Shown: positions 175 to 20,746 of the stretch, piece by piece
Position numbering within the stretch: position 1 is the stretch's first letter
How the letters are laid out: each line of letters opens with the position of its first letter
DNA from: Chrysochromulina tobinii
Lineage: Eukaryota > Haptophyta > Prymnesiales > Chrysochromulinaceae
Assembly (NCBI GenBank): GCA_001275005.1
Contig: JWZX01003161.1
Location: forward strand, 1-20,881
DNA length: 20,881 nt
Reading direction: 5' to 3'
Translations under genes and position numbers: made by a program
Notes under the pieces: model-generated
Seen by the model: only the letters and a program-made list of their open reading frames with translations
The model's database searches: none
What the model was told of the DNA's origin: nothing

Positions 175-3100
175 GTGGGCCTGTGCTTCGAGGAGGGGAG
201 CCTCGTACGCGAGAAGCTCAAGATGATCTACATCGCGCCCATGAAGGCGCTCGCCCAGGAGCTCGTGGGCAAATTCTCCAAGTCCCTCGGTCAGCTCGGG
301 CTGCAGGTGCGCGAGTACACGGGCGACATGCAGCTGACGAAGCGCGAGATCGCGAGCACGCACCTGATCGTGACCACGCCCGAGAAGTGGGATGTGGTTA
401 CACGCAAGGGGTCGGATGCGCTCGTGTCCGCGGTCGGGCTGCTCATCATTGACGAAGTCCATCTGCTCAACGACGACCGAGGGCCCGTCATCGAGGTGCC
501 GAGATGGCGCGCCTCCTCTGATTGCATGTGATTGCATGTGATTGCATGTGATTGCATGTGATTGCATCCCTCATCAGGCACTCGTGGCGCGCACGCTCCG
601 TCTTGTCGAGTCGTCGCAGCAGATGATCCGGATTGTGGGCCTCTCGGCCACCCTGCCCAACTATGCGGACGTCGCTCTCTTCCTCAAGGTGATGGCTCTT
701 GATGGCCTCTTGATGGCTCTTGATGGCTCTTAAGAGCCCCGACTGGCCCTGATTGACCCGGATCGACCTTTTGGCCCCGAAATCCCACAACTGCCGGGCG
801 TGTCTCTCCTCCTCAAAGGTCAACCCGGCGACTGGTCTCTTCCACTTTGGGCCGCAGTACCGCCCTGTGCCACTGACGCAGACCTTCATTGGAGTGACGA
901 AGACGAATGTCAAGGAGCGGAACGACATGATGATCCAGATTGCGTACGAAAGGGCACTCATCGCGATCCGACGTGGCAAGCAAGTGATGGTCTTCGTGCA
1001 TGCCAGGTCCGACACGGTGCGCACGGCGCGCGCTCTACTGGAGCTCGCGAGGAAGGAAGGCACCGCCGAGGAGCTCCTTCCAAAGTATGACGAGATCCCG
1101 ACGTTCCAGCTCAAGGTTAAGGAGGTGGGCTGAGTGCTCCCTGATCGCCTCTCTGAGTTCCTTCCTGAGTGCCTCCCTGAGAGCCTCCCTCATTGCCTCC
1201 CTGGCCGCCTCCCTAATTGCCTCCCTGACTGCCTCCTTGACTGCCTCCCTGAATGCACCTGATCGCCTCTCTGATCGCCTCTCTGAGTGCCTCTTTGATG
1301 GGCAGGTGGGCAAGTCCAAGTCTCCCGAAGTACGCGAACTCTTCGGGGGCGGCTTCGGCGTTCACCACGCGGGCATGCTGCGCGCCGATCGGGGGCTGAG
1401 TGAGCGCTTGTTCTCCGAAGGCCTCCTCAACGTGCTCGTGTGCACCGCAACGCTCGCCTGGGGAGTCAACCTGCCCGCGCACACGGTGATCATCAAGGGG
1501 ACGCAGCTGTACGATCCCGAAAAGGGCTCCTTCAAAGACCTCGGCGTGCTCGACGTGATGCAGATCTTTGGACGGGCGGGACGACCCCAATTCGATACGA
1601 ATGGCGGCGAGGGCATCATCATCACGCAGCATGCCAAGCTCGCCCACTATCTGCAGATGCTCACCTCGTCGATCCCGATCGAATCGCAGTTCGTCTCGCG
1701 CCTGTGCGATCACATGAACGCCGAGATTGCGCTCGGCACAGTCACCTCGGTACGCGAAGCCGTCACGTGGCTCTCGTCTACGTACCTGCACCTTTGCATG
1801 CAAGTGCTCACCACAGCGCCGTGTCTTCACAGGTACGCGAAGCCGTTACGTGGCTCTCGTATACGTACCTGCACGTGCGCATGATGCGCAATCCTCTCGC
1901 GTACGGCATCCCTTATGAGACCGGCATGACCGACCCACGCCTCGTCCGTTGGCGCACCGAGCTGATCCAATCGATGGCGCGCCGGCTCGACAGGTGAGTG
2001 CCCCTGATTGCACCTGATTGCACCTGATTGCACCTGATTGCAACTGGTGACCTCTGATCCAATCAATGGCTCACCGGCTCGACAGCGGCCGCATGATCCG
2101 GTTCCATGAGGCCTCCGGATCCCTCGACCCGACCGAACTTGGCCGTACCTCGTCGCACTTCTACCTGTCCGTGGACACCGTCGAGACGTTCAACGAGATG
2201 CTCTCTCCAACGAGCAACGAGGCCGAGATCCTGCACACGCTCTGCAGCGCCGCCGAGTTTAGTCAGATCAAGGTGAGGAGCGGATGGCGCCTGATTGGCG
2301 GCCTGCGGTTCGTCTGAGTGCCTCCCTGATGACTGTCTAATTACCTGTCTAATTACCTGTCTAATCATATGCGCGTGTGCCTGCCTAATTAGGTGCGCGA
2401 GGAGGAGATGGAGGAGCTCGAGGCGCTGCTCGACCAGGCGCCGCTCAACGTCAAGGGCGGCCTCGCTTCCAAAGAAGGCAAGACCTGTGTCCTGATGCAG
2501 GCGTACATAGGCGGACTACCGGTCAAGGCGTTCGCGCTCGTCTCGGACTGCACCTTCATTGCGCAGTCGGCCGCGCGCATCGCGCGAGGTCTGTTCGAGA
2601 TCACCCTCGCGCGCGGATGGCTCTCGTACGCCGAAAAGGTGCTGGTTGCCTCTGATTGGTGCTCATTGCCTCGGTTTGCCTGAGACTGCCTCCGATGGTG
2701 CCTGAGACTGCTTCTGGTCTCGCTCTCTTGTTTGATTGAAGTTTGATTGCGTGATGATGGCGCGCGGATGGCATGCTGATTGTCTGTTCGTGAGCGCAGG
2801 TGCTGCGTATCTCGAAGATGCTTGAGCAGCGCGCGTGGGCGTTTCGTCACCCGCTGCGCCAGCTCGGCAATCTCCCGTTTGAGATCTACGACAAGCTCGA
2901 GGCGAAGCGCGCGAGTGTCGATACGCTCCGCGATCTCGACGTGAAGGAGATTGGCGCGCTCATCAGCAATATGAAGCAGGGCCCCGCCATCAAGGCGGAG
3001 GCTCGTCAATTGCCTCTACTACTCGTGGACGTGAGTGCGCAGCCAATCACGCGCACCGTGCTGCGCGTCAGCCTGACGCTCACCGCGGCCTTTGACTGGG

Positions 3101-6100
3101 TCGACCGCCACCACGGCGGCATGGAGCCATTTTGGGTCTGGGTACGCGATTGCCACTGATTGCAACTGATTGCAACTGATTGCCATTGATTGCCACTGAG
3201 TGCCACTGAGTGCCACTGATTGCCACTGATTGCCACTGATTGCCACTGATTGCCATGGAATGCCACTGATTGCCACTGATTGCCACTGATTGCCATGGAT
3301 TGCGTCGGACGACCCCGTGTGGCCGCTGGAGTGCCGTTGAGTACCGCTGAGTGCTGCTGAGTGCTGCTGAGCGTCGCTGAGTGCTGCTGAGTGCTGCTGG
3401 TCTCTGGTCGCAGGTCGAGGACACCGAGAATGAGCACATTTATCACAAGGAGCTGTTCACACTGACCAAGATGAAGAAGGACGAGCCGCACACCCTCGCG
3501 TTCACCATCCCCCTCTTTGAGCCCCTCCCCCCCTGCTACTTCGTGCGCGCCATCTCCAACCGATGGCTCGGCGTCGAGACGATTGTGCCGTTGCCGCTGA
3601 GTGAGCTGCACTTGCCGACGGCGCAGCCCGCGCACACGGAGCTGCTCGACCTTCGGCCTCTCCCCAAGACCGTCCTCTGCGACCCAAACTGGGAGGCCCT
3701 CTTCAAGTTCTCGCACTTCAATCCGATTCAGACGCAGGTCTTTCACACCGTCTTTCACACCGACCAGAACATCCTCGTCGGCTCGCCCACGGGCTCCGGC
3801 AAGACCGTCACCGCTGAGCTCGCGGTACTCCGTCTCCTCCGAGCGCACCCCGGCATGAAGGCCGTGTACATCGCGCCGCTCAAGGCGCTCGTGCGCGAGA
3901 GACTCGATGATTGGACGACGAAATTCGTCAAACGGCTCGGCCTCTCGCTCCAGGAGCTCACCGGAGATTCGGCGCCGGACGCGCGCGCACTCGCCACGGC
4001 CGACATTTTGGCCACCACGCCGGAGAAGTGGGACGGCGTCTCCCGCCACTGGCAGCAGCGCGGCTACGTCCGGCAGGTAAGCCTGCGCCTCGGTTGGACG
4101 AGATCTCGTGTTGACGAGATCTCGACATGTCGAGATCTCGTGTTGATGAGATCACGATCTGCTCGAGTCGGTTGAGGCCTCTGAGGAGCTCTGATTGCAT
4201 CTCGCGTTCGGCAGGTGGGGCTGGTCATCATTGACGAGATCCATCTGCTCGGCGAAGACCGTGGGCCGATTCTCGAGGTGGGGCCAGATTGGTCACTGAT
4301 TGCGATCGAATGCGAGTGCGATTGAATGCGAGTGCGATTGAGTGCGATTGAGTGCGATTGAGTGCGTCCATCATCAGGTGATTGTGAGTCGGATGCGCTA
4401 CATTGCGACCAAGACAAACGCTTCCATCCGCATCGTCGGCCTCTCAACCGCGATGGCCAATGCACACGACCTCGCTGACTGGCTCGGCATCCCGCCCGAT
4501 GGCCTCTTCAACTTCAAGCCGTCGGTAACGAACCGCTCCTCCCTAATTTGGGTGCGCGTCGCCTCCCTAATTTGGCGCGTGCTCCCTCCCTTATTAGGTA
4601 CGCCCGGTGCCGCTCGAGGTGCACATCGCGGGCTTCCCTGGCAAGCACTACTGCCCCCGCATGGCCACAATGAACAAGCCGACGTACCGCGCGATCCTCA
4701 ATCACTCGCCTACGAAGCCGGTGCTCGTCTTCGTCTCGTCTCGTCGCCAGGTCTGATTGCACTACGACTGCATCCCTGATGACTTCGGATGGCCTTCTCA
4801 CTCCGCTATTGCTCGCCTCATGCCGCTGCTGTGAACGTTCACAGACGCGCCTCACGGCGCTCGACTTGATTGCGTACTGCTCTGCGGATGAGAGGGACAC
4901 TCAATTCGTCAATCTCCACCCGAGCGAGCTCGAGCCGTTACTCGCGACCATCAAGGACGGTGCCCTCAAGCACACGCTTGCGTTTGGGGTGGGCATCCAT
5001 CATGCTGGGCTTTGCGAGAGCGACCGGACGACCGTTGAGCGCCTGTTCGTCTCGCAAGCCATCATGGTGCTCGTGTGCACCTCGACCCTCGCGTGGGGAG
5101 TCAACTTTCCCGCGCATTTGGTCGTCGTCAAAGGGACCGAGTTCTACGACGCGAAGACGAAGCGGTACGTCGATTTCCCGGTGGCCGAGGTGCTTTGCAT
5201 GCAAGTGCTCACCACAGCGCCGTGCCCCCCGCGCAGGTACGTCGACTTTCCGGTGACCGAGGTGCTTTGCATGCAAGTGCTCACCACAGCGCCGTGCCCC
5301 CCGCGCAGGTACGTCGAGTTCCCGGTGACCGAGGTGCTTTGCATGCAAGTGCTCACCACAGCGCCGTGCCCCCCGCGCAGGTACGTCGACTTTCCGGTGA
5401 CCGATGTGCTTCAGATGATGGGTCGTGCGGGACGGCCGCAATTCGATGACCAAGGCATCGCAGTGATCCTTGTGCACGAGCCCAAGAAGACGTTTTACCG
5501 CAAGTTCCTGTAAAATGAGAACTCTTGCCGAGGGAGACGTGATTGCGATGGATGACGTCTGATGGCGTGTGATGAGCTCGCTGATTGCCTCCCTCATTAG
5601 GTACGAGCCCTTCCCTATCGAGTCGTGCCTGCAAGAGCAGCTGCACGATCACATCAACGCCGAGGTGGTGAACGGCACGATCACGTCGAAGCAGGTGCGT
5701 GATGACCACTGATGACCACTGATGAACGTCCATGACGTGGCAGCGTGGCCAAAGGTGGTGACACGTGCCCTTCTGATTGATAGCCACTGATGACCACTGA
5801 TGACCACTGATGACCACTGATGACTCCTGACGAGGCAGGACGGTGTGGACTTCCTCTCGTGGACGTACTTTTTCCGACGGCTCGCGCGTAACCCCGCGTA
5901 CTACCACCTCGAGGTCCCGATGGTCCCGGCGTCGGCTTCCTCCTCCCTCGGCCTTGACGAAGCAGGTTCGTTAATGGGCTCGTTTATCGGCTCGCTGATG
6001 ACCTCACTCATTCGACCTCGGCTGATTGCCTCACTCATTCGACCTCGGCTGAAGACCTCACTCATTCGACCCCGGCTGATTGCCTCACTCATTCGACCTC

Positions 6101-7507
6101 GGCTGATGACCTCACTCATTCGACCTCGGCTGATGACCTCACTCATTCGACTCCGGCTGATTGCCTCACTCATTCGACCTCGGCTGTGTGCAGTGAACAC
6201 GTTCCTATCCGATCTCATCGAGGGCACGCTGTACGATCTCCAGAGCGCGGGATGCCTCGAGATTGACGAGATCGACGGGAGCTCCGTGCGCCCTCTCACG
6301 CTCGGGCGGGTCGCATCGTACTACTACCTCAAGTACACGACGGTCGCGCTCTTCTGCGCAGAGCTGCATGACGTCGGCGAAGCCGTTACGGAGCTGCCCA
6401 CCCTCCTTCGAGTGCTCTGTGACGCTTCCGAGTTTGATGAGCTTCCGGTACTCGTCACCACCGATGAGCAATTCTGAGCACTGATGACTACTGATTGCGT
6501 CCGCATCCGAGCACTGATTGCGCCCCTCATCAGGTACGTCACAACGAGGAGCACGTGCATGCACAGATGAGCACCGAGCACTGATTGCGCCCCTCATCAG
6601 GTACGTCACAACGAGGAGCACGTGCATGCACAGATGAGCACCGAGCTGCCGTGGCGTGTCGACCAGTCGGCCCTCGACTCGCCGCACGTCAAGGCTCAGC
6701 TGCTGCTTCAAGCGCACTTCGCACGCACGCCTCTTCCAATGTCGGACTACGTCACCGACACCAAGTCGGTACTCGACCAGGCGATGCGGGTGCTCCAGGC
6801 CATGGTCGACATTGCGGCGGATGGAGGCTGGCTGGACACGACGCTGTCAGTGATGCACCTCGTTCAGATGGTGACCCAGGCACGATTCCTCGACGACTCT
6901 CCCTTCACCGATCTGCCCCACGTCGATGAAAAGGTAGAGGCGCAGCGGCCCTGCGTGCAGAGGGCGTCACTGATTGCGTCTCTAAGTGCATGTTTGATGA
7001 TCTGATTGCGTTCCTCATCAGGTGGAGGCGGCGCTGCGCGCCAAGGGCATCACCGACCTCGCCACCCTCGCGCGCCTGCCCATAGAGAAGCTCCGACAGC
7101 TGCTTGGCGGCGTGCTGCGCGAAAGGCCGATCGGCGAGCTCGCCGAGGTGCTACGCGCCTTGCCTACGCTCACGCTGCGCGCGGAGGCGCCCCATACGGC
7201 GCTCGCCCCGGGCGAGGAGAGCGTGGTGAAGGTGCACATGGAGGCGACGCAACGGGGGCACCGGCGGCATGCGTTCGCGCCGCGCTTCCCGAAGCCAAAG
7301 CTCGCGGGCTGGTGGCTTGTGATGGGCGAAGCGGACGAGCTCTTCGCCCTCAAGCGCATCCACCTCGACCGTGGGGCGCTCACGAGCGAGCTGCACTTCG
7401 CCGCCCCGGACGAGCCCGGCGAGTACCTGTACAGCGTCCGCCTCGTGAGCGACTCGTACATCGGACTCGATGGCGAGGTGCAGGTGACGGTTGTCGTCTC
7501 GGGCTGA
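175..7507 (+). CDS. ASCC3: ASCC3/Slh1-type Ski2-like RNA/DNA helicase, 5' partial, 19 exons
   Basis: Two-cassette Ski2-like helicase of the ASCC3 (HELIC1/Slh1) family, which acts in splitting collided ribosomes and in alkylation-damage repair. I assign exons 175-495, 578-688, 819-1124, 1306-1749, 1833-1993, 2086-2272, 2393-2638, 2800-3141, 3414-4076, 4215-4277, 4378-4524, 4598-4750, 4845-5164, 5381-5509, 5601-5694, 5839-5965, 6194-6447, 6601-6933 and 7022-7507. They join in frame into about 1,628 residues ending at TGA. Cassette 1 shows [37 protein letters not shown] and GRAGRPQFD, followed by a first Sec63 region (about 1833-3600). Cassette 2 shows Walker [32 protein letters not shown], the ASCC3-style LST motif, [13 protein letters not shown] and GRAGRPQFD, then the second Sec63 region to the end. 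The intact second cassette and motifs such as [18 protein letters not shown] favour ASCC3 over Brr2. The N-terminus and first Walker A are outside the window. Splice sites were chosen by protein continuity. Confidence 0.95.
496..577 (+). repeat. ASCC3 intron 1 with TGATTGCATG array
   Basis: GT-AG intron between RGPVIE and ALVART. Positions 519-568 hold five head-to-tail copies of a 10-nt unit, TGATTGCATG. The intron ends ATCCCTCATCAG, a tail shared with several other introns in the window. Confidence 0.85.
689..818 (+). repeat. ASCC3 intron 2 whose 3' end resembles the upstream exon
   Basis: The intron begins with about four copies of a 10-nt TGATGGCTCT unit (691-732). Its last roughly 30 bases (786-818) are a diverged copy of the end of the preceding exon (about 659-688). 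Both run from AACT through CTCTC and TCCTC to AAG before GT. The acceptor AG therefore seems to come from copied exon sequence. Confidence 0.75.
1125..1305 (+). repeat. ASCC3 intron 3, 12-nt repeats bounded by AGGTGGGC
   Basis: This 181-nt intron is almost wholly a degenerate 12-nt array (GCCTCCCTGATT-like, about 1137-1296). The 8-mer AGGTGGGC spans both the donor and the acceptor junction, so the intron is bounded by a direct repeat. Confidence 0.8.
1750..1832 (+). repeat. ASCC3 intron 4: exon copy plus shared splice cassette
   Basis: The first 42 nt of this 83-nt intron (1750-1791) match the first 42 nt of the next exon (1833-1874) at 40 positions. The remaining 41 nt contain the core GCAAGTGCTCACCAC (1800-1814) and end TTCACAG. 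The same core occurs in intron 13 and in an intron of the minus-strand gene at 19316-19385. Confidence 0.9.
1994..2085 (+). repeat. ASCC3 intron 5: upstream-exon copy forms the acceptor
   Basis: The donor is GACAG|GTGAGT. Four 10-nt CCTGATTGCA units fill 2001-2040. The last 32 nt of the intron (2054-2085) match the last 32 nt of the preceding exon (1962-1993) at 29 positions. Both copies end CTCGACAG, so the acceptor AG is copied exon sequence. Confidence 0.9.
2273..2392 (+). repeat. ASCC3 intron 6 with CTAAT repeats
   Basis: About three copies of a 12-nt unit (ATTACCTGTCTA, about 2332-2368) precede CTGCCTAATTAG. Each unit carries CTAAT, which fits the branch-point pattern YTNAY. The first bases (GTGAGGAGCGGATGG) loosely resemble the start of the next exon. 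That resemblance is weak. Confidence 0.75.
2639..2799 (+). repeat. ASCC3 intron 7 bounded by AGGTGCTG
   Basis: The 8-mer AGGTGCTG crosses both splice junctions. A 13-nt exon string, GCGCGCGGATGGC, present shortly before the donor, recurs inside the intron near 2759-2772. This suggests an eroded copy of the exon end. Confidence 0.75.
3142..3413 (+). repeat. ASCC3 intron 8: two perfectly phased 10-nt arrays
   Basis: This 272-nt intron is the longest complete one in the gene. Positions 3151-3300 are 15 units of exactly 10 nt, mostly TGCCACTGAT. Positions 3331-3400 are seven units of exactly 10 nt, mostly GTGCTGCTGA. There is no length variation between units within either array. Confidence 0.9.
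4077..4214 (+). repeat. ASCC3 intron 9: 16-nt repeats, 28-nt palindrome, copy of the next exon
   Basis: Positions 4098-4161 are four 16-nt units of GACGAGATCTCGTGTT type. Within them 4114-4141 is a perfect 28-nt palindrome centred on ACATGT. The last unit and its flank (4143-4165) resemble the DEIH-coding part of the next exon (4231-4251), sharing TTGA-GAGATC and ATCTGCTCG. CGGCAGGT spans both splice junctions. Confidence 0.8.
4278..4377 (+). repeat. ASCC3 intron 10 with AGTGCGATTG array
   Basis: About four to five copies of a 10-nt AGTGCGATTG unit occupy about 4312-4365, followed by TCCATCATCAG. The flanking exon 4215-4277 is only 63 nt long and encodes the second DEIH motif. Confidence 0.8.
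4525..4844 (+). other. ASCC3 introns 11 (4525-4597) and 12 (4751-4844) around exon 4598-4750
   Basis: Intron 11 (73 nt) has a doubled CTCCCTAATTTGG and ends CTTATTAG. Intron 12 (94 nt) starts GTCTGATTGC and ends GTTCACAG, with no clear array. Both are placed by unbroken protein similarity: [12 protein letters not shown] and [12 protein letters not shown]. Confidence 0.85.
5165..5380 (+). repeat. ASCC3 intron 13: three 72-bp units, each an exon copy plus splice cassette
   Basis: The 216-nt intron is exactly three 72-bp units (5165-5236, 5237-5308, 5309-5380). Each begins with about 31 nt nearly identical to the start of the next exon (5381 onward, coding [10 protein letters not shown]). Each then carries the cassette with GCAAGTGCTCACCAC and ends CGCGCAG before GTACGTCG. 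Every unit border has the form CAG|GTACG and could act as acceptor or donor. The intron has no stop codon and its length is divisible by three. Retention would put 72 residues into helicase motif VI, so I treat it as intronic. Confidence 0.9.
5510..5600 (+). other. ASCC3 intron 14 with shared 3' tail
   Basis: A 91-nt intron, CCT|GTAAAA to CATTAG|GTACG. It ends CTGATTGCCTCCCTCATTAG, which nearly matches the tails of introns 1 and 17 and of intron 1 in the cyclic-nucleotide-binding gene. Confidence 0.85.
5695..5838 (+). repeat. ASCC3 intron 15 with TGACCACTGA arrays
   Basis: Two blocks of a 10-nt TGACCACTGA unit lie at about 5701-5722 and 5781-5830, with unique sequence between them. The acceptor is GACGAGGCAG. 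Splicing joins TSKQ to [14 protein letters not shown]. Confidence 0.85.
5966..6193 (+). repeat. ASCC3 intron 16: seven 27-bp tandem repeats
   Basis: Positions 5994-6182 are seven copies of a 27-bp unit that begins GCTGATTGCCTCACTCATTC, with few substitutions. The intron is phase 1 and ends GTGTGCAG. The block is free of stop codons in the frame of the preceding exon. Confidence 0.9.
6448..6600 (+). repeat. ASCC3 intron 17: 67-bp tandem duplication of exon start and acceptor
   Basis: Positions 6534-6578 are an exact copy of the first 45 nt of the next exon (6601-6645). They are followed by a second copy of the acceptor tail CTGATTGCGCCCCTCATCAG. This creates two equivalent CAG|GTACGTCAC acceptors, at 6533 and 6600. 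Only the second keeps the frame, since the 67-nt offset is not a multiple of three. Confidence 0.9.
6934..7021 (+). repeat. ASCC3 intron 18: diverged copy of the next exon at its 5' end
   Basis: The first 40 or so bases (6934-6976) align with the start of the next exon (7022-7062). Both begin GT-GAGGCG, and AGGGC-TCAC follows at corresponding places, with gaps between. The tail is TCTGATTGCGTTCCTCATCAG-like. It looks like an older example of the pattern in introns 4, 13 and 17. Confidence 0.65.
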
Positions 7508-11200: not shown

Positions 11201-14200
11201 CAGTGCCCACAGGCGACGGTCCGCAAGAACGACGAGGCGGGTCTCCGCGGCGCCTCCGCGAACCTTTTCCACGAGATAGTCGCGGGCGGCCGAAGCCTCA
11301 CTGCGGGGACCCGTGAGCCTGATCGCGTTCCCGGAGACGTCGGTATCATAGAGGGTGAATGTCTTGCGCAGGTCGGTGAAGAGCTTCCCGTTGACAACCA
11401 CTTGGACAGTCAAGCTGTCGAGGTCATCCATCTCCGCCGCAGCCTTTTTTCGAGCCTCTTCCGCTTCCGCTTTAGCCTCGGGCAAAAAGTAAACCCGCAC
11501 CTCCGCCCTGCCGGAGCTGTGGAAGGTCCGCTCGAAGGTCCACAGCGGAATGGTGCAGTGGGACGCAGCCATGGCTGAGCCGACGTCGTCGTCGGCGCCG
11601 TCGGCGCCGTCGGCGTCTGGAGGGCTGTCGAGGAGCGAGGCACGGACGCTCTGGAGGAGAGGGCAGAGGGCTCGGTGGGGCACGCGGGCGGGAACGTCAA
11701 TTTTGAGCCATTCGATGGAGAGGAGGAGTTTGTTTAGCTTGACGCGAGCCTTCTCGACCGACTCGGGCAGTCCGGTAAAGCGGACCTCGACCTCCTCGGG
11801 CTTCGGCGCGTCGCAGCGGTGGCAGCGCGACAGGTTCTTCGAGCCGAAGTTGGTGTTACTGCACTTTGTGCAGATCCAATCTTGCCCTCCGCGACCTCCG
11901 CGCGCCCCGTGTCCCCCAGGGCCGTTCATGGCACTGCCTCCGCGGCCGGCGGAAGAGGTGCCACCGCTGCCGTCGGCGGATGCGCTGCCGTTCGCGCCGT
12001 CGTTGCGTGTGAACGAGGATGAGCGGTGCATTCCGCGTGCCGTTGGGGTGCGAGCCCTTGGTGGGGCGGCGACCAAACGAAGCCGAGCGCACCTTCTGCG
12101 GCTGGAAGACCTTGGGCGCAGAGAGATCCACCTCGAGCTTGTCGTCAACGGCCTCGAGTCTCTCGCGGATGCTTTGCCAGGCCGAGCGCACGAGCGCCTC
12201 GATGCTGGGGGAGACGGTGATGGTTGCAAAGATTCTCTCGCGGGACAGGAGCATCTGCTTCACCTTCTTTGCGTCGGCGGCGTCCTTCTTGAAGAAGCAG
12301 ACGACGACGACCCCCGTGGGGGCGTAGCCCTCGATCTCGGGAGGGTCGCCGCCGTAGGGGAAGAAGCGGATGCGCGGGTCCTTCTTGAGGGCGCAGAGCC
12401 GCTCCAGCTTATCCTCGAGGGTGTCGGCGGTGAACTTGGAGCTTGCAAAGCTGTTGTCGAGTGGGGCCGACCCCAGAAACACGCCTGTGTCGATCTCCTC
12501 GCACCTGATCTTCCCCTTGTAATAGATGGGCGCGTCGCAGGTGTCGGCGAGGGCTCTCACGTCCTCCTCCGTGCAAGGGGACGAGTAAATGAACCCGATA
12601 ATGTTCTTCTTGGGGACGGGCTGGGTGGCTCCGGCGCCGGGTCCGACGGTCGAGACGGCACCCATGTCCGGCTCGATTAGGTGCTTTACCTTTTCAACGA
12701 TGCGCTCCCCGCCTTTCGGAAAGAAGATGCGGGTGTTGTTGACGCGAGCAAAGGCCAGGAGCTGGGCGTCGCGGGCGAGGCGCGTCTCGGAGACGCCGCG
12801 GACGGTTACGGCCTCTGCACACGCCGACTGCGAAAATATGCGCATCTTCTCGGCGGCCACATTGACCTGGGCGGCGGAGGGCTCGGACGACGGGGCCGGC
12901 GCAGATAGGGCGCCGTCCGCGTCGGATGACACGACCTCGGCGGCCTTGAGGACGAGCTCTTCGAGCGCGACGTGGATCGTGAAGCGCGGGTGGATGCCGA
13001 CGAGCTCGGTCTGGAGTTCCTGCAGACGCCCCTCGCTTGCAAAGAACTTGCACAGGGCCTTGGAATGCCCGGAGGGCTTGTGCTTGAAGAGCCCGGACGG
13101 CGGAGGCGGAGGCGGAGGAGGCGGAGGCGGGGTCACGGACCTAGAACCTGGCCCTGGCGCGGTCTCCTCAAAGACCTTCACGGGCGCGGAAATGCTCGGG
13201 GCCACACCGCGCGCAATGTCCACGATGTGGCGCCAGGCGATGACGGCGCGGCCGCGGCCGACGCATCTGAGGAAGGCCGAGTTCGGATTCGAATCCTCGT
13301 TTGCGATGATGACGATATTGTTGAAGCCTCCCTGGGACTGCATACGGCTGACGTGGTAGGAGAAGTCCCTGTCGCTCGTGATGATGATGATGAGGGTGGC
13401 CGCCTTGAACTCCTCGCTGTCGGCCTTGTGCTCGTCGACGAAGTTCGTCATGGATTTCTGGATGTCTTGGTCGACAGCCCCGTGCTTATTGCCGGGGTCG
13501 ACGTGGGTGACGCTCGTTGTGAGCAGGGCGCTCATGCACGCGCTCGTCGGGTGGAAGGGGTTGGTGGGCGAGTCGGACTTGTCTCGAGTGGGGCGGTGGA
13601 GGACGAACTGGTACTTGAATGTTGGGAACTGATGACGGAGGCGTTTTGAGCTGGTGCGCTCCAGAAAGGGGTGGTTTCTAGTATCGGGGAAGCAGCCGAG
13701 CGCGACGCGCAGCGTCTCGTCCACCGCGAGCTCGCCCTTGATGTCGGGGTGGTTCATGTCGATGGGGTGGAAGTGCGCGACCACGCGTCCCATGGCGTCC
13801 TTGGTCATGGCGAGCGAGCCGTCGGCGTTGCGAACAGGGTACTGGGACGGGAACGGCGCGTTCTCCGCGTCGTGCCACACGCAAACGCGCGTGAAGGGCA
13901 ACGCGGTCGGCGGTGGCGGTGGCGGTGGCGGTGGCGGTGGCGGTGGCGGTTGCGGTTGCGGTTGCGGTGGCGGTGGCGGTGGCGGTGGCGGGGGCGTCGG
14001 ACGGTCGAAGTCGGACGAGAGGACGAAGTTGACATTCACCCCCCTTATGCGGTGAGGTAAGGCGAGGATGCTGTGGGCGGACTCAGCGGAGAGGATGAAT
14101 ACGTCCGGGGCCGACGGACTGACCACGACGGCAACGTCCTTGGAGGTCAGGTACGTCACGACGGCGCCCAGGACCCTGTCGCGAGACGCGGCGTCGGTGC

Positions 14201-14738
14201 CGTCGGGGAGGACGATGCGCACTGCCGAGGGGCCGTCTTGCGGCGCCGTCTCCGCGAGGGTGAAGGTGAAGCCAGCCCCCCCTTTGGCCTGAAATCTGTG
14301 GCGGCGCACGAGCTGGAGGGCCTTGTCGGCATCGGGGGCGAGGAAGAGCATGGGCCCGTCCGAGTCCCGTTTCGTGGGATGAGGTTCGAGGGCGAAACCC
14401 TCCTCGACGTCGACGATTTCGGAGACAACGTCGGGGGCAAGGGCCCCACCCTCGACGACGCAAGCGACACACTTGCCCGCGCGTGAGACGCCCATGACGA
14501 CGCCCCTGACTCGGAGACCATCGCGGAGAAGATCATTTAAAATGGAGTCCGAGGCGGCGACGGAGAAGACCGCCGCTGCTGGGCGGTCGGGGAGCGTCAC
14601 TTCATGCTTGAAGACGAGCCCCAGCGACACGAGTGCTGACTGCTCGATGTCCGACTGATGAGGAGGGCTCGCGCACGATGCCGGGGCCGACACGACGACC
14701 AGCGTCGGGCTGCTAGCATCTAACTTGGATGCCGCCAT
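8224..14738 (-). CDS. NYN-RanBP2 ZnF-KH-macro-SAM-WWE-PARP giant protein, in three frames
   Basis: PARP14-like ADP-ribosyltransferase with an added N-terminal NYN nuclease-like domain, about 2,170 residues if two frame breaks are bridged. The start at 14738 has strong context (ACCACCATGG). An earlier in-frame ATG at 14855 would add a basic, Ala/Ser-rich leader. Frame 1 (to about 12060): polyproline at about residues 248-277 and 537-547, and an NYN domain at about 285-480 with WHDAENAP and ITSDRDFSYHV. Frame 2 (to about 9470): RanBP2-type finger (DWICTKC, CHRCDAPKP) near 11815-11885, KH-like repeats, macrodomain at 10190-10723 (DAVVNAANPYLHPAGG), SAM-like segment at about 9905-10096, and WWE at about 9467-9760. 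Frame 3: PARP catalytic domain at 8227-8808 with WMKHGT, GRGTYLAEDAAYS and YPAYLITY, then TGA. The catalytic His and Tyr are present, and Ala replaces the usual third-position Glu, so mono-ADP-ribosylation or loss of activity is likely. No repeat-type introns are seen. Confidence 0.85.
9445..9475 (-). other. Frame break 2 in the PARP-family gene
   Basis: The WWE domain ends in one frame (MRQENVV, YGRAVRR) and the linker to the PARP domain continues one base on (ESLVPMYKERLEA). Two readings fit. One is an extra C in the CCCC or CCCCC runs here. The other is a 31-nt GT-AG intron at exactly 9475-9445, which would cut off the WWE VRR end. That length is far below the 70-272 nt of the other introns. 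Confidence 0.6.
12031..12090 (-). other. Frame break 1 in the PARP-family gene
   Basis: Upstream protein ends in the basic segment SASFGRRPTKGSHPNG, and downstream protein resumes one base on as MHRSSSFTRNDG, just before the Gly-rich linker and zinc finger. A 22-nt GT-AG segment (12078-12057) would restore the frame, as would one extra base. The region is low complexity, so similarity cannot decide. Both breaks shift the frame in the same direction. Confidence 0.6.
13098..13131 (-). repeat. Coding polyproline repeat (second tract)
   Basis: GGCGGA-type triplet repeats on the plus strand encode about eleven prolines after the NYN domain on the minus strand. It probably acts as a flexible or SH3/WW-binding linker. 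Confidence 0.8.
13908..13994 (-). repeat. Coding (GGCGGT)n repeat encoding polyproline with Gln-Pro
   Basis: About 14 GGCGGT hexamers, interrupted by GGTTGC variants, encode roughly 30 residues of proline with Pro-Gln in the centre, just before the NYN domain. The tract is likely to vary in length and is prone to sequencing error. Confidence 0.85.
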
Positions 14739-15580
14739 GGTGGTTGTAATTTCGGGAACGGGCGCGGATATGTCGGGTTGAAGGCGAGCTTGACTTGCGC
14801 TGGCGGTGGCTTGCGCCTTTGATGACGTGAAGAGCGCCGTGCGCCAGTGGTGCATGATGCCTTTGGTGCTCGCTCGCTTCTGTGAGGGGGGAAGGCGAAC
14901 GTTTGGTGATCGGGGGAAGAGAGACGCGATACGGATGGCAAGGCGTCGCACCCGCCGTGCACGCGCGTGGGATGGGTGCTCATGTGGGAGCGGAAGTTGG
15001 AGGCGCGGTGCCTTGGGTTGCTGGGCATGGAGAGGGTCGCGCGCTCTGGCGACCCATTGCGCGCTCTGGCGGGGACGTGCGGGGGGAGCGCGCGCGGCCC
15101 GAAATCCGGTTGGAAGCTGCCAAGGCAGGGGTGAAGGGAAGGCGTGTGCGGGTGCGCGGGGCTGATTCGCTCGGAAGAGCTGGTGTTGGGCGCGGCGAGT
15201 TGGGAGCAGATGAGGGCATGAGGTCGCACTCTGTTTGTCGAGCGCGTGCTCCTTTTGCGAGCTAACAAGTGTTACGCAAGACCCATTTTTAGGTCCATCT
15301 TGAGAAAGTACGATTCGTTTGTTGTCAAGTCAAGTTGTGTGAACCACGTCCCCTCCGTTGCGGAGCACGGTGACTTCTAAAACACCTTTTCGGTGTCGAG
15401 CTGTCGAGGAAGCGCAGCCGCCCATGTCTCAAGTCTTTCAACTTTGTTCTTTTAAAGGATGGATCAGCCGCGGATACAACGCCCAGTTGAAAAGGAGGGC
15501 CAACGAGTGGGCAAACACAGTCCTTTTTAAGCAAGTTCCCCTGCGGAGAGAAACAGCTTTGTTGCGCCTATCGTGCGAGA
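14739..15580. promoter_or_regulatory. Divergent intergenic region, probable shared promoter
   Basis: This 842-bp stretch separates the starts of two divergent genes. Part of it (14739-14855) could be coding if the PARP-family gene uses the earlier ATG. GCGCGCTCTGGCG occurs twice in direct orientation, at 15039-15051 and 15059-15071, with 20-bp spacing. An AT-richer segment at about 15260-15330 and TTCTTTTAAAGG near 15450 might be core promoter elements for the plus-strand gene. No consensus TATA box is certain. Confidence 0.35.
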
Positions 15581-17620
15581 ATGATGCCCTCCAAGGCGCA
15601 GTCCAGTGCGTCGAGCATCATGTTGAGCTCTGGGCCGATACAGCTTCCCATCAGCTATCTGCCGCAGCAGACGTTCAGAATCCCATCTCCGTTGGGCAGC
15701 TCCGCCGAAGCTACGGCGATGTTGGCGCGCCAGCAGCTCAAGAAGCCGCCAGGTTTTCTGCAGGAGCTGCAGCTGTCACCGCGCCGGCCGCACCCGCGTG
15801 CGGGGCTGCCGATGCTTGAGTCGGTCGAGGGCGTGCAGAGTCCGAGGACGTGGCTGCCGACCTCGCCTCGTGGCCGCGTGCACGTCAGATCGCTCGTGCT
15901 CGACGAGCCGGCGGGGCCGCCAGCCGAGCCGGCCTTGCCTGCGGCGCATGCATTGGCCTCCTCGCCCCAACCCATCAAGGCGTCGGTCTTCGCCTCCGCG
16001 ACGCCCATCGAGCTCTCCAAGGCGCACGCGCGCGCGCTCTCGTCCTCATCATCGGGCGACGACGAGTCGACCGAGGCGACCGACAAGAGGCATCGGCTGC
16101 GGCTGCTCGACGACATGCGCTGGATCCTATTCAACAAGACGGACGTGTACCAGCCGCGCGAGATGCCCTCAGCGCTCTCGCCCGAGCAACTCGCGGACGT
16201 CGTCGACACCCTCTCGCGCGTGCACCTCTTCCGACGGTTGAGCGACCAGCAGCTGTCGGAGCTGCGCCGGCTGGGCAAGCATCGGCTCTACCCTCGGTAC
16301 TAGAGCCTCTGAGATGGTAGCCTCTGATAGCCTCTGAGTGCCTCCGAGTGCCTCCGATTGCCTCCCTCATCAGGTACTCTCGGATCTTGCGCGAAGGCAC
16401 GCGCTCCACGTCACTCTTCGTGCTGCTGAGCGGGCACATCGCCGTGTACAACGCCAAGAGCGGCGAGACGCCCACGAGCTTGGGGCGCGGCGCCCTCTGT
16501 GACGAAGCCTGCCTCGTGGCCGAGGTCGCGCGAGAAACGTCCGTGAGCGCGATCACCCCGTGCCACGTGCTCGTCCTCGAGCGGAGCGCGCTCGTGTGGA
16601 ATGCGCCGACGGAGCTCGATCCACGGCGCGTGCTGCGTGCGCCTCCGATGGCCGCGCTCACGACGACGCCCGAGTTCCACGAGCTGCGCATCTCCGTGAT
16701 TGCGGGCATGCTCGAGGCGCTTGCATTCTTCCGCAGCTTGACGCATGGCCGTCACGCGGCGGTGGCGGCGCTCCTCGAGGTGGCGACGTACGTGGTGGGC
16801 GAGGTCGTCTTTGAGCAGGCACGCGTCCCTTGATTGGCCTTGATTGGCCTTGATTGGCCTTGGTTGGCCTTGATTGGCCTTGATTGGCCTTGATTGACCT
16901 TGATTGACCTTGATTGGCCTTGATGGCCCTTGATTGAACCTGATTGACCCTGATTGGCCTTGATTGGCCTTGATTGACATTGATGGAGAGGTCGTCTTTG
17001 AGCAGGGTGACGCGACCGAGATGGCTATGTACCTCGTGACCGAAGGGCAGGTCGAGCTGAGCCAGGGAGCGTTAGGGCGCGACATGAATGGTAATGCACG
17101 CCCCGCCATCGTGCTCGCCCGCGTCGATCCCGCCTCCGAGCGCCCTTGGTTTGGCGAGCTGCAGCTCTTTGTGAGGCTACCCCGGCACAGCACGGCGACG
17201 GTGCTCCAGCCCGCACGCCTGCTCAGGCTCAGCCCCAACCACTTTGAGGAATTCCTCGAGCTCCTGCCGGACTTTCGCACCTTTCTGAACCGCTCGACGC
17301 GCTCGTCAGCCGCGCACGCGATCTCGAACCGGGAGATGACTCTCGAGCAGAGCCGCGCTGACGAAGCGCGGAATCGGATGCAGTCGACCGTGTCGGTCGT
17401 CTGGCAGTCCGGCGCGCGCCTCGGCACCAACGCCGTCCTGGGCGCCAGTGGGGCCGCCGAACGCTCGGCGTTTGCGGAGCGGTGGGAGCGCATCGTGACA
17501 GCGATGCTCGCGCGGGCGGGCGACTCGGACTACACGAAGGCGATGGCGACCGTCTCGTTCAAGACGACGGACTACATACCGCACGGCCAGCGCTCGTCGA
17601 GGGACGTGGCGAGCGCATGA
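15581..17620 (+). CDS. Tandem cyclic-nucleotide-binding-domain protein, 3 exons
   Basis: Exons 15581-16296, 16374-16803 and 16991-17620 join in frame into 591 residues ending at TGA. About 200 N-terminal residues are Ser/Pro/Ala-rich and unrecognised. Two cNMP-binding domains follow. Domain A starts near residue 222 (HLFRRLSDQQLSELRRLG) and continues through LFVLLSGHIAVYNA. Its phosphate-cassette region reads GALCDEACL...ARETSVSAI, with CDE where FGE is usual. Domain B starts at LAFFRSLTHGRHAAV and runs through VVFEQGDATEMAMYLVTEG. It has WFGELQLF followed by RHSTATV, with the conserved Arg displaced. No kinase domain or membrane segment is seen, and no clear PKA-type RRxS inhibitor site. It may be a PKA-regulatory-like or scaffold protein of unknown role. 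The start is the first in-frame ATG pair. An upstream exon is possible. Confidence 0.82.
16297..16373 (+). other. Intron 1 of the cyclic-nucleotide-binding gene
   Basis: A 77-nt intron, CTCG|GTACTAG to CATCAG|GTACTCT. GGTACT spans both junctions. It consists of CCTCTGA and CCTCCGATTG units and ends GATTGCCTCCCTCATCAG, like several ASCC3 introns. Confidence 0.88.
16804..16990 (+). repeat. Intron 2 of the cyclic-nucleotide-binding gene: exon copy and fifteen 10-nt units
   Basis: GAGGTCGTCTTTGAGCAGG occurs at both ends (16801-16819 and 16988-17006). The intron can be read as GT-AG within the duplicate (16804-16990) or as a GC-AG intron at the other end of it, giving the same protein. Between the copies, 16831-16980 is 15 units of exactly 10 nt, mostly TGATTGGCCT. 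Confidence 0.9.
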
Positions 17621-18648: not shown

Positions 18649-20746
18649 TCATCGCGGCGGGCTCTCCCGGAGCGAGCGCAGGAAGGTGGACAGCACGCCG
18701 TCGAGCTTGGCCCGGAGCTCCACGTGCACACGCGAGAAGGCCGAGCCCCGCTGGCCACGCGTCTCGTACGCCTCGGCCACGGCCGGGTCGCACAGGGTCG
18801 CCAGGTAGGCCCAGTCATTCTCGTCTGTCGCGCGCATCGTCACTCCGGGCGCATTGGCTACCAACAGTAGGATGCCCTGCCGTGCCGAGGCGGCGTCGGC
18901 GCAGTAAGCCGAGCTTCGAACGCAATCGTCGGGCGCCCTCTCGATCATCAGGTCCTCCGTCCACATGGCCTTATAGAGGTCGGCGACCACGAGCTCAAGC
19001 GAGATTGCATGCTCGCGCATCTCGGCCTCATAAAAGGCGCGAAGGCGCTCCGAACAGCTCGTCGGGTGACCCTGGTCCTTACGCCTCGCGGCGAGCTCGA
19101 GCTGCTTGCGTGCGTCCTCGGGCGTCTTCGCCTCGGGCAGCCGACCACCTGAGTGGTGGCATGGCTGATAGCTCATGTAGAGCCGAAGGATGCGTGCACG
19201 ATCGCCACTAGCGTCCGACCCCCCCCGAAGCAGCGCAAGCAGCTGGGGATCCGCGAGCATGAACTCCTCGGCATGCACGTTCCACTCGGAGCGCCCGCGG
19301 AAGCAGTTGGCGTACCTGTGGGGAAAGGGCGCCGTGGTGAGCACTTGCCTGCCGTATGGAGTTACCGCGGAAGCAGTTGGCGTACCTGGCGACGTACAGG
19401 TCAGCGCCGTTCTGGGCACCGAGCACGCGCGCCACGATGGTCACCTGTGCTTTGGTGCACTTGTCGCGCGTATCGACCTTGCCCCATCGAGGAGCCCCCC
19501 CCGGCCCGTCGCGCCGGCCTCGCTCACCCCTCCTGTCGCCCTTGGCATACCGTGCGACGTCGCTGGCCTCGGCGGCCGGCATCTGGAGCGCATCTCCGGG
19601 GATCTCGAGCGCATCTCCCGCCGCGTTGAGCGGCTGGCCGAGGCACAAGGACACGTCCGCTTCCCATTGGTTCGCGTGATAAAAGGCACGGCAGAATTGG
19701 GACAAGTCGCCCAATAAGCTGCGGTATCCATGGGGGAGGCTGGTGCACGTGACAGCATGGGGCGGGGCGTACGTGGTAAACCCTTGAAACGAGGCGTGGG
19801 ATGGGCGCTGGCACTGGCAGCGCGTCCCAGGACCACTGCCGAGCCCGCCAAGCCTGTCGCCGCCGCCCTGCCTGTCGCCACCGCCCTGCCTGTCGCCATC
19901 GCCCTGCCTGTCGCCGCCGCCCTGCCTGTCGCCGCCGCCCTGCCTGTCGCCACCGCCCTGCCTGTCGCCAACGTACAGCTCTCGTGCCTTTCGGTCGTTG
20001 AAGGCCTCCTGCGGCGTGTCGCGCCGGCGCATGGCTCCGTACGAATCGAGCCCAAACTTAGCAGCCAGCTCTGGCGGCACTTGGAGCGTCTCCACCGGGA
20101 CAGGAGGCTCGACGTAGCCGTTTGGGTGTGAAATCTTGAGATGGCGGCCCGAGAGCTCCATCCCGTTGAACGTGGCGACGGTGGCGGAGATCTTCTCGTC
20201 GCGGAACTCGACGAAGGCGAAGGCGGAGGTGGAGTTGCCGCCGGTGCGGATCTGCGCGTTGAGCACGGGCGGCCCAGGCGCCGGGTCGTACCCCTCGCAC
20301 GCCTCTATCATCATCGAGAACAGCTGCCGCAGCATGGGCTCCGTGACGAGACCCGTCGGCAGGTTGCCCACGTAGAGCTCGCGCTGCTTCTTGGCGTTGA
20401 CCGTCGCCACAATGGGGGGCATGTTCGGCATGTTCGGGTTCGCCATCATCCCAGGCATCATCCCCGGTGGCATGCCGCTCATGCCCGGCGGCAGACCCGT
20501 CGGCTTGACGCCCAGCGGCATGCCCGAGCCTCCCGAGCCCATGTCGTCCCACGCGCTCCACCGCGGGCGCCGCTCCCGATCGCGGTCATCGTAGCGGTCG
20601 CCGCGGTCTCGGTCGCCGCCGCGGTCGCGGTCGCCGCCGCGGTCGCGGTCGCGGTCTCGGCCGCGGTCCCGGTCGTCGAATCTATCATCACGCCGCCGCT
20701 GATCATACCGATCGTCGTCCCGGTCTCGGCGAAAGTGGTGGGACAT
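18649..20746 (-). CDS. Arg/Asp-rich U2AF-like RRM protein with C-terminal AID/APOBEC-like deaminase domain
   Basis: Exons 20746-19386 and 19315-18649 join in frame into about 675 residues. The ATG (MSHHFRRDRDDD) is the first in frame. Residues 1-70 are Arg/Asp repeats, followed by a Met/Pro/Gly linker. The RRM has RELYVGNLPTG as RNP2-like and SAFAFVEFRD as RNP1-like, closest to RRM1 of the U2AF large subunit. A second RELYVG follows about 100 residues later but gives way at once to GDRQGG repeats. The C-terminal part shows deaminase elements: TIVARVLG and DLYVARYANC strands, HAEE, LYMSYQPC, and a later CSERLRAFYEAEM helix followed by LELVVADLY. These fit the H-A-E and P-C...C zinc site of AID/APOBEC-like enzymes, with 34 residues between the cysteines. 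One frame stays open from RRM to deaminase, so a fusion is likely. A separate deaminase gene starting at ATG 19582 is the alternative. Confidence 0.72.
19316..19385 (-). repeat. Intron in the RRM-deaminase gene: exon copy plus shared splice cassette
   Basis: A 70-nt intron read 19385 to 19316. Its first 21 nt (19385-19365) are identical to the first 21 nt of the next exon (19315-19295, coding YANCFRG). The rest carries GCAAGTGCTCACCAC (complement of 19334-19348), a pyrimidine run and CCACAG. The arrangement is the same as ASCC3 introns 4 and 13, on the opposite strand 14-18 kb away. Confidence 0.9.
19853..19972 (-). repeat. Coding 18-bp repeat encoding DRQGGG
   Basis: Between six and seven copies of an 18-bp unit (plus strand CCTGTCGCCACCGCCCTG and variants) encode repeated DRQGGG on the minus strand. 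They start immediately after RELYVG, where a second RRM would be expected. The frame stays open throughout. The block could be coding linker or part of an unrecognised intron. Confidence 0.8.

Follow-up and report, generated by a model that had tools for sequence, protein, structure and literature searches.

The origin of spliceosomal introns is a long-standing question, and the locus studied here raises it in a concrete form: how did introns that carry copies of their neighboring exons arise? The window, meaning the whole 20,881-bp stretch of Chrysochromulina tobinii DNA that was analysed, holds 21 predicted introns, 18 in ASCC3 (A), two in a cyclic-nucleotide-binding gene (C) and one in an RRM gene. 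Once its 18 introns are spliced out, the ASCC3 model yields a single open frame of 1628 amino acids, and 17 of its 18 junctions are gapless against the Prymnesium parvum orthologue, with gaps at A16 only. A preliminary description had reported exon copies in nine of the 21 introns, in two classes, and had proposed tandem duplication of AGGT-containing exon segments as their source. Every intron was compared with the exons of all other introns (420 swaps in each class). The next exon's start was found at the intron front in A4 (score 40), A13 (23), the RRM intron (22), A18 (17) and A17 (14.5), against a swapped-pair maximum of 11.0, and the end of the previous exon at the intron back in A5 (26), C2 (19), A2 (14.5) and the RRM intron (10), against a maximum of 9.0. 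Eight of the nine reported cases thus exceed every swapped pair, which rules out a chance origin, and A9 alone is borderline (p=0.017 at the front, 0.050 at the back). A14 (p=0.007) and A6 (p=0.017), absent from the earlier list, also score. Among the 16 introns left after setting aside the five strong front cases, resemblance to the next exon still exceeds that of permuted exons (pooled p=0.0001); the corresponding value for the back class without A2, A5 and C2 is p=0.053. The two classes stand as described, each copy giving one splice site. Between the exon copies lies a repeated element. In the type I layout, exon A is followed by GT-B', the element (a branch-point-like CTCAC, pyrimidines and CAG) and GT-B, so that branch point, pyrimidine tract and CAG lie in the element and the 5' splice site comes from the copy of the next exon. 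Type II is the mirror form, with GT in the element and AG from the copied end of the previous exon A. The features concerned are as follows.

689..818, plus strand: ASCC3 intron 2, closing with a copy of the previous exon's end (score 14.5, control maximum 9.0)
1750..1791, plus strand: ASCC3 intron 4, part 1, upstream duplicate, copied from the next exon's start and giving the 5' splice site
1792..1832, plus strand: intron 4, part 2, type I element of 41 bp with core GCAAGTGCTCACCACAGCGCC and 3' splice site TTCACAG
1833..1874, plus strand: downstream duplicate, the retained exon copy 3' of intron 4
1962..1993, plus strand: exon end just before intron 5, the source of the copy found at that intron's back
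1994..2085, plus strand: ASCC3 intron 5, closing with a ~32-bp copy of the previous exon's end that gives the acceptor
5165..5380, plus strand: ASCC3 intron 13, a tandem array of three 72-bp units, each an exon copy plus a type I element (elements at 5190-5236, 5262-5308 and 5334-5380)
5510..5600, plus strand: ASCC3 intron 14, front like the next exon (p=0.007), with T-family 3' end GATTGCCTCCCTCATTAG
6448..6600, plus strand: ASCC3 intron 17, next exon copied at the front; T-family 3' cassette and exon start in tandem, copies starting at 6507 and 6574 (period 67 bp, exact across 73 bp)
6934..7021, plus strand: ASCC3 intron 18, front a diverged copy of the next exon, end a T-family 3' cassette
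16819..17005, plus strand: cyclic-nucleotide-binding gene intron 2 (GC-AG), closing with a copy of the previous exon's end
19316..19385, minus strand: RRM gene intron, a 21-bp copy of the next exon (19365-19385) plus a 49-bp type I element (19316-19364)

Introns 4 and 13 and the RRM intron have a 21-bp core in common, GCAAGTGCTCACCACRGCGCC; an element end, CCCCACAG, was named alongside it. The genome contains 2006 copies of this core (947+1059, at most two mismatches), as compared to 0+1 for a control pattern, and 2200 copies (1074+1126, at most one mismatch) of a second 3'-end cassette, the T family, for which the control gave 0. The type II form, written GTACGTTGATTGCC...GCGC, has 113+124 genomic copies at up to three mismatches and 0 in the control. 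Many near-identical copies sit in introns at unrelated gene positions, the copy-number pattern of introners. The core had no exact match in a prokaryote genome collection and one match in viral contigs (L178). A single viral-contig match to the T cassette (L179) was judged by eye to be chance similarity in unrelated DNA, and no relatives of P0123 were found in viral contigs. An Rfam search of the window returned no match, and predicted RNA structure of the element was no better than that of shuffles (z +1.17 and -0.52).

Copies of the core across the genome show the same architecture as those in the window. The sample consisted of 119 core copies, mainly the first 100 exact matches listed (contigs C8-C647), the rest lying within two mismatches in fetched DNA and the window; exclusion of 34 with another core in the flank left 85 isolated copies. 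A flanking direct repeat (score at least 12) was present in 70 of the 85, as compared to 2.2% of swapped controls. Fifteen copies lacked such a repeat and 24 lacked a splice-consistent one. Although the repeats were aligned blind to splice sites, 48 of the 70 begin 0-4 nt before an AG/GT or AG/GC junction, compared with 11% of the positions in those stretches. Anchoring on splice sites gave 61 of 85 copies with a duplicate of 13-53 bp (median 27), none of them showing the fixed short duplication (3-9 bp) of MITE-type introners. Type I dominates (55 of the 61; exon-start copy 8-51, median 27), and the end of the previous exon was also matched, over 8 or more nt, in only four of these 55. Duplications accompany 27 of 34 copies in the type II set, where some repeats may be inflated by element tails that resemble the exon end and a few duplications could be near 8 bp, and 23 of 44 in the T family (4.8% of controls). 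Judged by these repeats, the exon copies behave as putative target-site duplications. The introns were probably made by introner elements, here short fragments of an intron of ~79 nt whose insertion into exons creates target-site duplications that are long and vary in length.

Related alleles with and without insertions bear on the direction of change, and were compared at two sites within ASCC3 exon 9 among others.

3414-4076, plus strand: ASCC3 exon 9
3543..3575, plus strand: exon 9, empty site 1; filled in P0001 by a type I element with an 11-aa (~33-bp) duplication
3825..3854, plus strand: exon 9, empty site 2; type I element in P0004, limits approximate since taken from protein

At the DNA level, the filled C608 and the empty L178 differ at one further site by exactly 75 bp, made up of a 25-bp duplicate and a 50-bp element. 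Metagenome proteins, which are representatives of 90% clusters with the representative sequence alone read, add further pairs: P0001 has a 38-residue stretch where the window and P0002 have a single 12-residue stretch in exon 9, and P0004 is filled, at the protein level, at the second exon 9 site. Intron-less alleles of the kind that the preliminary description had sought are thus represented by C608/L178 and by P0001 and P0004 against P0002 and the window, as expected of new introns made by insertion. Intron 13 has three units in the window, one in P0241 and none in P0242, and P0252 (94% identical over the aligned stretch) is gapless across the sites of introns 9-13; P0242 and P0252 may be transcript-derived, in which case they would show splicing and not intron absence. 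Homology breaks at window intron sites in P0101 (10), P0337 (5), P0245 and P0251 (6), P0249 (2) and P0259 (9), which means that some of the introns may be older ones, common to the window and these relatives. The direction read from the duplication points to gain, not loss, at the empty and filled sites, and on this reading closely related environmental alleles show apparently recent gain of introns. Because such alleles may have or lack an insertion, or have it in different numbers of units, the earlier impression of an unusually active process is borne out.

Reading frame and orthologues are the grounds on which we infer splicing of the predicted introns. With the predicted intron removed, the two flanks agree in coding frame in 42 of 61 copies, and without removal in 20; a test for open frames did not discriminate (spliced flanks 43 of 61, unspliced 33, antisense of spliced flanks 41). 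Type I donors carry G at -1 in 78% of cases and RCG at +3 to +5 in 44%, as compared to 22% and 11% of exonic GTs, and the flanks are sense-like in 45 copies and antisense-like in 16. Total intron length in recent type I copies (n=23) is strangely constant (sd 7.9, as compared to 15.6 for shuffled parts), a constancy of which selection on the distance between 5' splice site and branch point may or may not be the cause. The left filler of recent type I copies ranges from 0 to 36 nt and is largely unshared, and its length falls as duplication length rises (Spearman -0.82, n=23). This correlation suggested collinear replacement, in which exon overwrites the end of a new intron in register and keeps length constant, an idea dropped because the presumed donor-daughter pair in C88 is out of register (GT to core 31 and 42 nt). 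Genome-wide searches with three filler strings, allowing three mismatches, found no other place for one and a single further match for each of the other two, both at three mismatches; with matches this rare, a common donor of the filler is without support. Local hopping was also rejected, as tails of same-contig copies are no more alike than those of cross-contig copies (60 and 3510 pairs, p=0.27). In three same-contig pairs, 0.3-2.4 kb apart, the two copies agree over 9-13 nt beside the core, in filler or exon copy, and their tails are similar or identical.

How the fragments move is a separate matter from what they are. A tentative possibility is spread through RNA, in which excised intron RNA would be reverse-transcribed into nicked exons in a TPRT-like manner; this would explain why copies end in CAG on the right, vary on the left and lie in sense orientation. 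Splice-consistent type I copies end on the right at the 3' splice site (where the alignment was anchored; unanchored support comes from 48 of 70), left filler varies, sense-like copies outnumber antisense-like ones by 45 to 16, and the three same-contig pairs look as if one member carried the exon-copy end of the other. The genome also yields 26 reverse transcriptase matches, and of the 12 loci fetched, eight were scanned against Pfam, with a reverse transcriptase domain in seven and reverse-transcriptase-type RNase H in two. However, the exact 11-base core string is absent from all 12 fetched loci, so no reverse transcriptase is linked to the element; the ends and the sense bias follow just as well from selection for frame-neutral splicing; and the LINE-like pattern of a fixed 3' end with variable 5' truncation and a variable duplication fits type I but not type II, in which the 3' end is missing. 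A fuller version is doubtful: two or more unrelated intron families would supply pieces of RNA that had already been spliced, and staggered nicking with reverse transcription would return these pieces to exons at AG/GT positions resembling splice sites. Each event would leave a duplication of ~15-50 bp from which the missing splice site is borrowed, with the same core serving as a 3' or 5' half-intron and total intron length kept near 79 nt. If true, rewriting of spliced intron RNA would be a so far undescribed intron-making route.

Repair of staggered double-strand breaks, as modelled for Daphnia, would capture any DNA, cores being common since they are abundant and spliceable. A transposase with a fixed duplication accounts less well than break repair for three observations: duplication length varies, the filler at left junctions is unmatched, and two unrelated cassettes are built alike. 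It is nonetheless rather unlikely as the whole account, in that a fixed core in ~2000 copies implies a dedicated source, the repeats given for Daphnia in the available part of PMC4202315 span 4-12 bp as compared to 13-53 here, and the insert is the same core from case to case, though with left filler largely unshared. An ordinary MITE-like DNA transposon, as in other algae, would account for high copy number, insertion-site duplications and new introns, yet it is unlikely given that no terminal inverted repeats were seen by eye in the type I or type II consensus and that duplications of 13-53 bp contrast with the 3-9 bp that the available text of PMC9860276 gives for earlier introners. Finally, simple tandem duplication of AGGT exon segments, which would build an intron from exon sequence alone and has in its favor the 67-bp tandem repeat of intron 17, the multiplied units of intron 13 and the second core in the flank of 34 of 119 copies, is very improbable as the main route because a foreign, non-exon element with thousands of copies (2006 and 2200 for the two cassettes) sits between the duplicates, C608 and L178 differ by element and duplicate jointly, and usually one exon end is copied (both in four of 55 type I-dominant copies). 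The earlier proposal is better kept for a secondary step, as seen in the intron 17 repeat and in the three units of intron 13 against one in a related allele.

Introners are already known; what is new here is the long, variable duplications and the two-sided use of the core. As described in the portions of Gozashti et al. 2022 (PMC9860276) available to us, introners are short non-autonomous repeats that make introns on insertion, are commoner in aquatic organisms, and may carry one splice site and obtain the other from the target-site duplication, features all consistent with the present elements. Those characterised there have duplications of 3-9 bp, whereas here the range is 13-53 bp within one family, one core occurs with either splice site missing, and the exon copy makes up as much as half of the intron. 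Introner family 5 of Chrysochromulina sp. (Fig. 2C of PMC9860276), with an example intron of about 70 positions, brings its own 5' splice site and recruits the 3' one, like type II, but has a 4-bp duplication and, in that part of the source, no mention of a mirror form. Recent introns of Daphnia pulex are, in the excerpts of PMC4202315, likewise polymorphic in populations and repeat an exon end at the far end of the intron, which was read as staggered break repair, but the repeats are 4-12 bp and most insert sources are given as unknown. Intron gain in potato RdRp (PMC4974935, in part) shares exon-derived sequence in a new intron and differs in being a single case of tandem duplication, with no mobile element named in that text. 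Amoebophrya introners (PMC7789003, excerpted) are also repeated introns of a protist with direct repeats at their borders, but those repeats are 3-5 nt and come with inverted repeats and non-canonical splice sites. A survey of intron borders, as far as the consulted sections of PMC11782384 go, found direct repeats in many kinds of intron and read them as insertion footprints; these range from 4 to 30 bp (mean 11.4) across 213 introns of mixed kinds with no element family, and chance was controlled by base frequency only.

Under the introner reading, insertion would begin at a staggered break or at paired nicks ~15-50 bp apart, and both sides would be filled in and joined to an intron fragment, as DNA or reverse-transcribed RNA. 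With so long a duplication, an intact GT...AG insertion would put both duplicates into the mRNA; survivors would therefore mainly be fragments that lack one end and borrow a splice site from the duplicate, which would restore the message. Exchange between long duplicates could then produce tandem arrays or precise loss. The duplications suggest how an element with one splice site can still make a frame-neutral intron, date each event, record which copy stays coding, and are well suited to the exchange through which an intron could be lost precisely. In a 53-Mb genome with thousands of short half-introns, some of whose insertions are absent in close relatives, the birth of introns, the recruitment of their splice sites, their tandem multiplication and their decay can be read directly.

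Of the 21 introns of the window (contig C2002 of a 53.15-Mb genome in 2253 contigs), ASCC3 has 18, the cyclic-nucleotide-binding gene two and the RRM gene one. Those of ASCC3 were located by inspecting the sequence and by homology, and the joined exons give a single open frame of 1628 aa, which is 72% identical to a Prymnesium parvum protein over its full length and at most 58% identical to the remaining named proteins among the 120 matches listed. This makes a prymnesiophyte haptophyte the probable source. Seventeen of the 18 ASCC3 junctions align to the P. parvum orthologue without a gap, with gaps near intron 16, and 14 of the 18 introns are in phase 0. On the minus strand at 8224-15329, a large gene with sequence that looks macro/PARP-like by eye spans three open frames (1157, 1039 and 463 aa) that overlap and differ in phase, which suggests unmarked introns or frameshifts. 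Satellite-like units (TGATTGCC, TGATGACC and TTGATTGGCC) fill ASCC3 introns 1, 3, 5, 7, 8, 15 and 16 and intron 2 of the cyclic-nucleotide-binding gene, as well as many introns genome-wide, and contain branch-point-like CTGAT motifs.

The preliminary description held that nine of the 21 introns contain a copy of an adjacent exon. The front of each intron was compared with the next exon and its back with the previous exon, and, as a control, each was also set against the exons belonging to the remaining 20 introns (420 swapped pairs per class). Eight of the nine scored above every swapped pair: ASCC3 introns 4, 13, 17 and 18 and the RRM intron at the front, and ASCC3 introns 2 and 5 and cyclic-nucleotide-binding intron 2 at the back, with the RRM intron exceeding all pairs at the back as well. 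These eight are thereby confirmed. The ninth, ASCC3 intron 9, lies at the margin (front p = 0.017, back p = 0.050), and introns 14 (p = 0.007) and 6 (p = 0.017) score too. When the five strong front cases are set aside, a resemblance between intron front and following exon persists in the other introns (p = 0.0001); the back test with strong cases removed gives p = 0.053.

The core string GCAAGTGCTCACCACRGCGCC is common to ASCC3 introns 4 and 13 and to the intron of the RRM gene; it occurs in 947+1059 genome copies at up to two mismatches, compared with 0+1 for the backwards-read control pattern. These three introns contain type I elements, which carry a predicted 3' splice site and would take the 5' site from a copy of the next exon. 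The sample came mainly from the 100 genome places listed, all exact matches on contigs C8-C647 (30 as regions L009-L038, 70 in 57 small regions), together with the window, and contained 119 distinct core copies with enough flank at up to two mismatches; 34 with a second core in the flank were excluded as arrays, leaving 85 isolated copies. A direct repeat flanks 70 of the 85 at a score of at least 12 (swapped controls, 2.2%). With the repeat alignment blind to splice sites, the repeat begins 0-4 nt before an AG/GT or AG/GC junction in 48 of these 70, whereas 11% of the positions in those stretches would qualify. Sixty-one of the 85 are kept when the repeat must sit at splice positions, with repeat lengths of 13-53 (median 27) and a median intron length of 79, and a copy of the exon start (8-51 nt, median 27) dominates in 55 of them. 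The usual order is exon A / GT-B' / (CCTT)GCATGCAAGTGCTCACCACGGCGCC + pyrimidines + CCCCACAG / GT-B. At L063:201-317 (C416:3059, 3107, 3155), tandem 48-bp core-only units, each a 21-bp exon piece plus a 27-bp core, follow one another without the pyrimidine-CAG end and by eye are apparently readable as protein repeats, possibly an exonised form.

Coding frames of the flanks, judged from third-position GC and stops, are concordant in 42 of the 61 copies once the predicted intron is taken out; with it left in, the figure is 20 of 61, as chance would give. In keeping with the GC-rich DNA, a plain open-frame count did not discriminate among the 61 copies (43 spliced, 33 unspliced, 41 antisense). 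Compared with other exonic GTs, the donors of type I copies are richer in splice context, with G at -1 (78% vs 22%), AG (45% vs 5%) and RCG (44% vs 11%), a comparison in which the choice of donor could slightly favour AG. The flanks are sense-like in 45 and antisense-like in 16, or 37 vs 6 in the strong-periodicity subset.

The mirror form, type II, was sought with a 32-base pattern that represents the element's left half and has 113+124 genome copies at up to three mismatches (control, 0). Forty small regions among the matches listed gave 41 copies, 34 of them isolated, usually in the order exon A..AG / GTACGTTGATTGCCACTGATGACCTGCCTTGCATGCAAGTGCTCACCACAGCGC + tail + copy of A..AG / C; two members of this left-half sample, L173 and L176, are type I copies whose left half is longer. 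Twenty-seven of the 34 have a repeat above the control threshold, with lengths of 10-40 (median 17) that are less certain, since locus-shared tails at times resemble the exon end and several could be about 8 bp. Two copies, L161 and L165, share the tail GGCTTCCACAG; they lie on different contigs, and the inserted element finishes with this same 11-nt exon end. Insertion may be guided by microhomology. GC-AG introns occur in the cyclic-nucleotide-binding gene (window 16819) and in type II copies L140, L149, L163, L172 and L175.

Introns 14, 17 and 18, among others, have a 3' end close to GATTGCNTCCCTCATCAG/GT. This second cassette, the T family, has 1074+1126 copies at up to one mismatch (control, 0). 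The DNA examined contains 81 distinct copies; 37 were excluded as arrays, and 23 of the remaining 44 have an upstream copy of the next exon at a score of at least 12 (swaps, 4.8%), a tally from whose top rows L117, L121 and L124 should be discounted because they include satellite repeat. Two sequence-unrelated cassettes thus have one common architecture.

Comparison with relatives, proposed in the preliminary description as a way to find intron-less alleles, yielded signs of intron gain in other strains, among them an empty and filled DNA pair. The algal end of an IMG/VR contig, L178, matches contig C608 of the window's genome except, at the site in question, for a 75-bp insertion in C608, made up of a 25-bp duplicate GTGCGAGCTCGTGGCGAGCGTTACC, whose second copy has one mismatch, plus a 50-bp type I element with CCCCACAG at its end; another type I intron farther along is present in both. 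L178:1-4554 is algal, by its match to C608, only from about 4180 to its end, and the remainder looks bacterial or phage-like by eye; it is probably a chimeric contig whose algal part is unbroken across the empty site.

Protein comparisons extend to ASCC3. P0001 carries an 11-aa stretch twice, around a 16-aa stretch that is the element translated in the frame giving the 14-aa reading of intron 4's element; this site is empty in the window (3543-3575) and in P0002, and P0004 has a second insertion at window 3825, whose protein reading is QHASAHHGAPPFPT followed by a frame-shifted copy of the exon. The comparison rests on representatives of 90%-identity clusters (30, 50 and 22 members). Intron 13 has three units in the window, one in P0241 and none in P0242, which also lacks intron 14 yet reads into intron 15 and so must represent an empty allele or else a transcript that was partly spliced. 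P0252, 94% identical over the aligned stretch, has no gap across the sites of introns 9-13, and P0244 and P0245 run across those of introns 1-5. P0263, P0267 and P0283, for which the automatic gapless call is misleading, were judged by eye to be filled alleles reading through the exon copy. A simple reading as gain is countered by homology that ends at window-intron sites in P0101 (10), P0337 (5), P0245 (6), P0251 (6), P0249 (2) and P0259 (9), and some introns may therefore be shared.

At the level of sequence, the element, the duplication, the sharing of splice sites and presence/absence are all demonstrated. Insertion would occur at a staggered break or at a pair of nicks spaced about 15-50 bp. 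If a full-length GT..AG copy were flanked by long duplicates, the duplicate would be added to the mRNA, and survivors would therefore mainly be fragments without one splice site that borrow it from the duplicate: left-truncated fragments would borrow GT (type I) and right-truncated ones AG (type II). Exchange between duplicates would give arrays and precise loss. Among recent type I copies (23 of the 55, at 97% identity or more, minus one long intron if present), duplication length and the length of extra filler on the left strongly complement each other (Spearman -0.82, n = 23), their sum is nearly constant, and total intron length is 80.3 (sd 7.9, or 15.6 with parts shuffled). The simplest reason for this tight length would be selection on how far the branch point lies from the 5' splice site, but combinations of a long duplication with a long filler are absent as well. 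Three same-contig pairs share core-adjacent sequence and similar or identical tails, as though the end of the exon copy in the donor had travelled along into the daughter, and the moving piece would therefore be an intron piece. It may move as DNA or as RNA: the CAG end and the bias towards sense orientation fit RNA, yet either could also result from selection.

Introners and the recruitment of splice sites from duplication are already known, and the extracts of PMC9860276 describe 3-9 bp repeats in previously characterised introners. Extracts of other reports give 3-5 nt in Amoebophrya (PMC7789003), 4-12 bp in Daphnia (PMC4202315) and 4-30 bp (mean 11.4) in a survey of 213 mixed introns (PMC11782384). 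No further description of such long repeats was found in the titles and abstract openings of papers listed from a literature collection with few subscription journals. The Chrysochromulina family described in PMC9860276, as far as its extracts go, has its own 5' splice site and recruits the 3' site, with a 4-bp duplication, whereas the splice-anchored core repeats here are 13-53 long (median 27).
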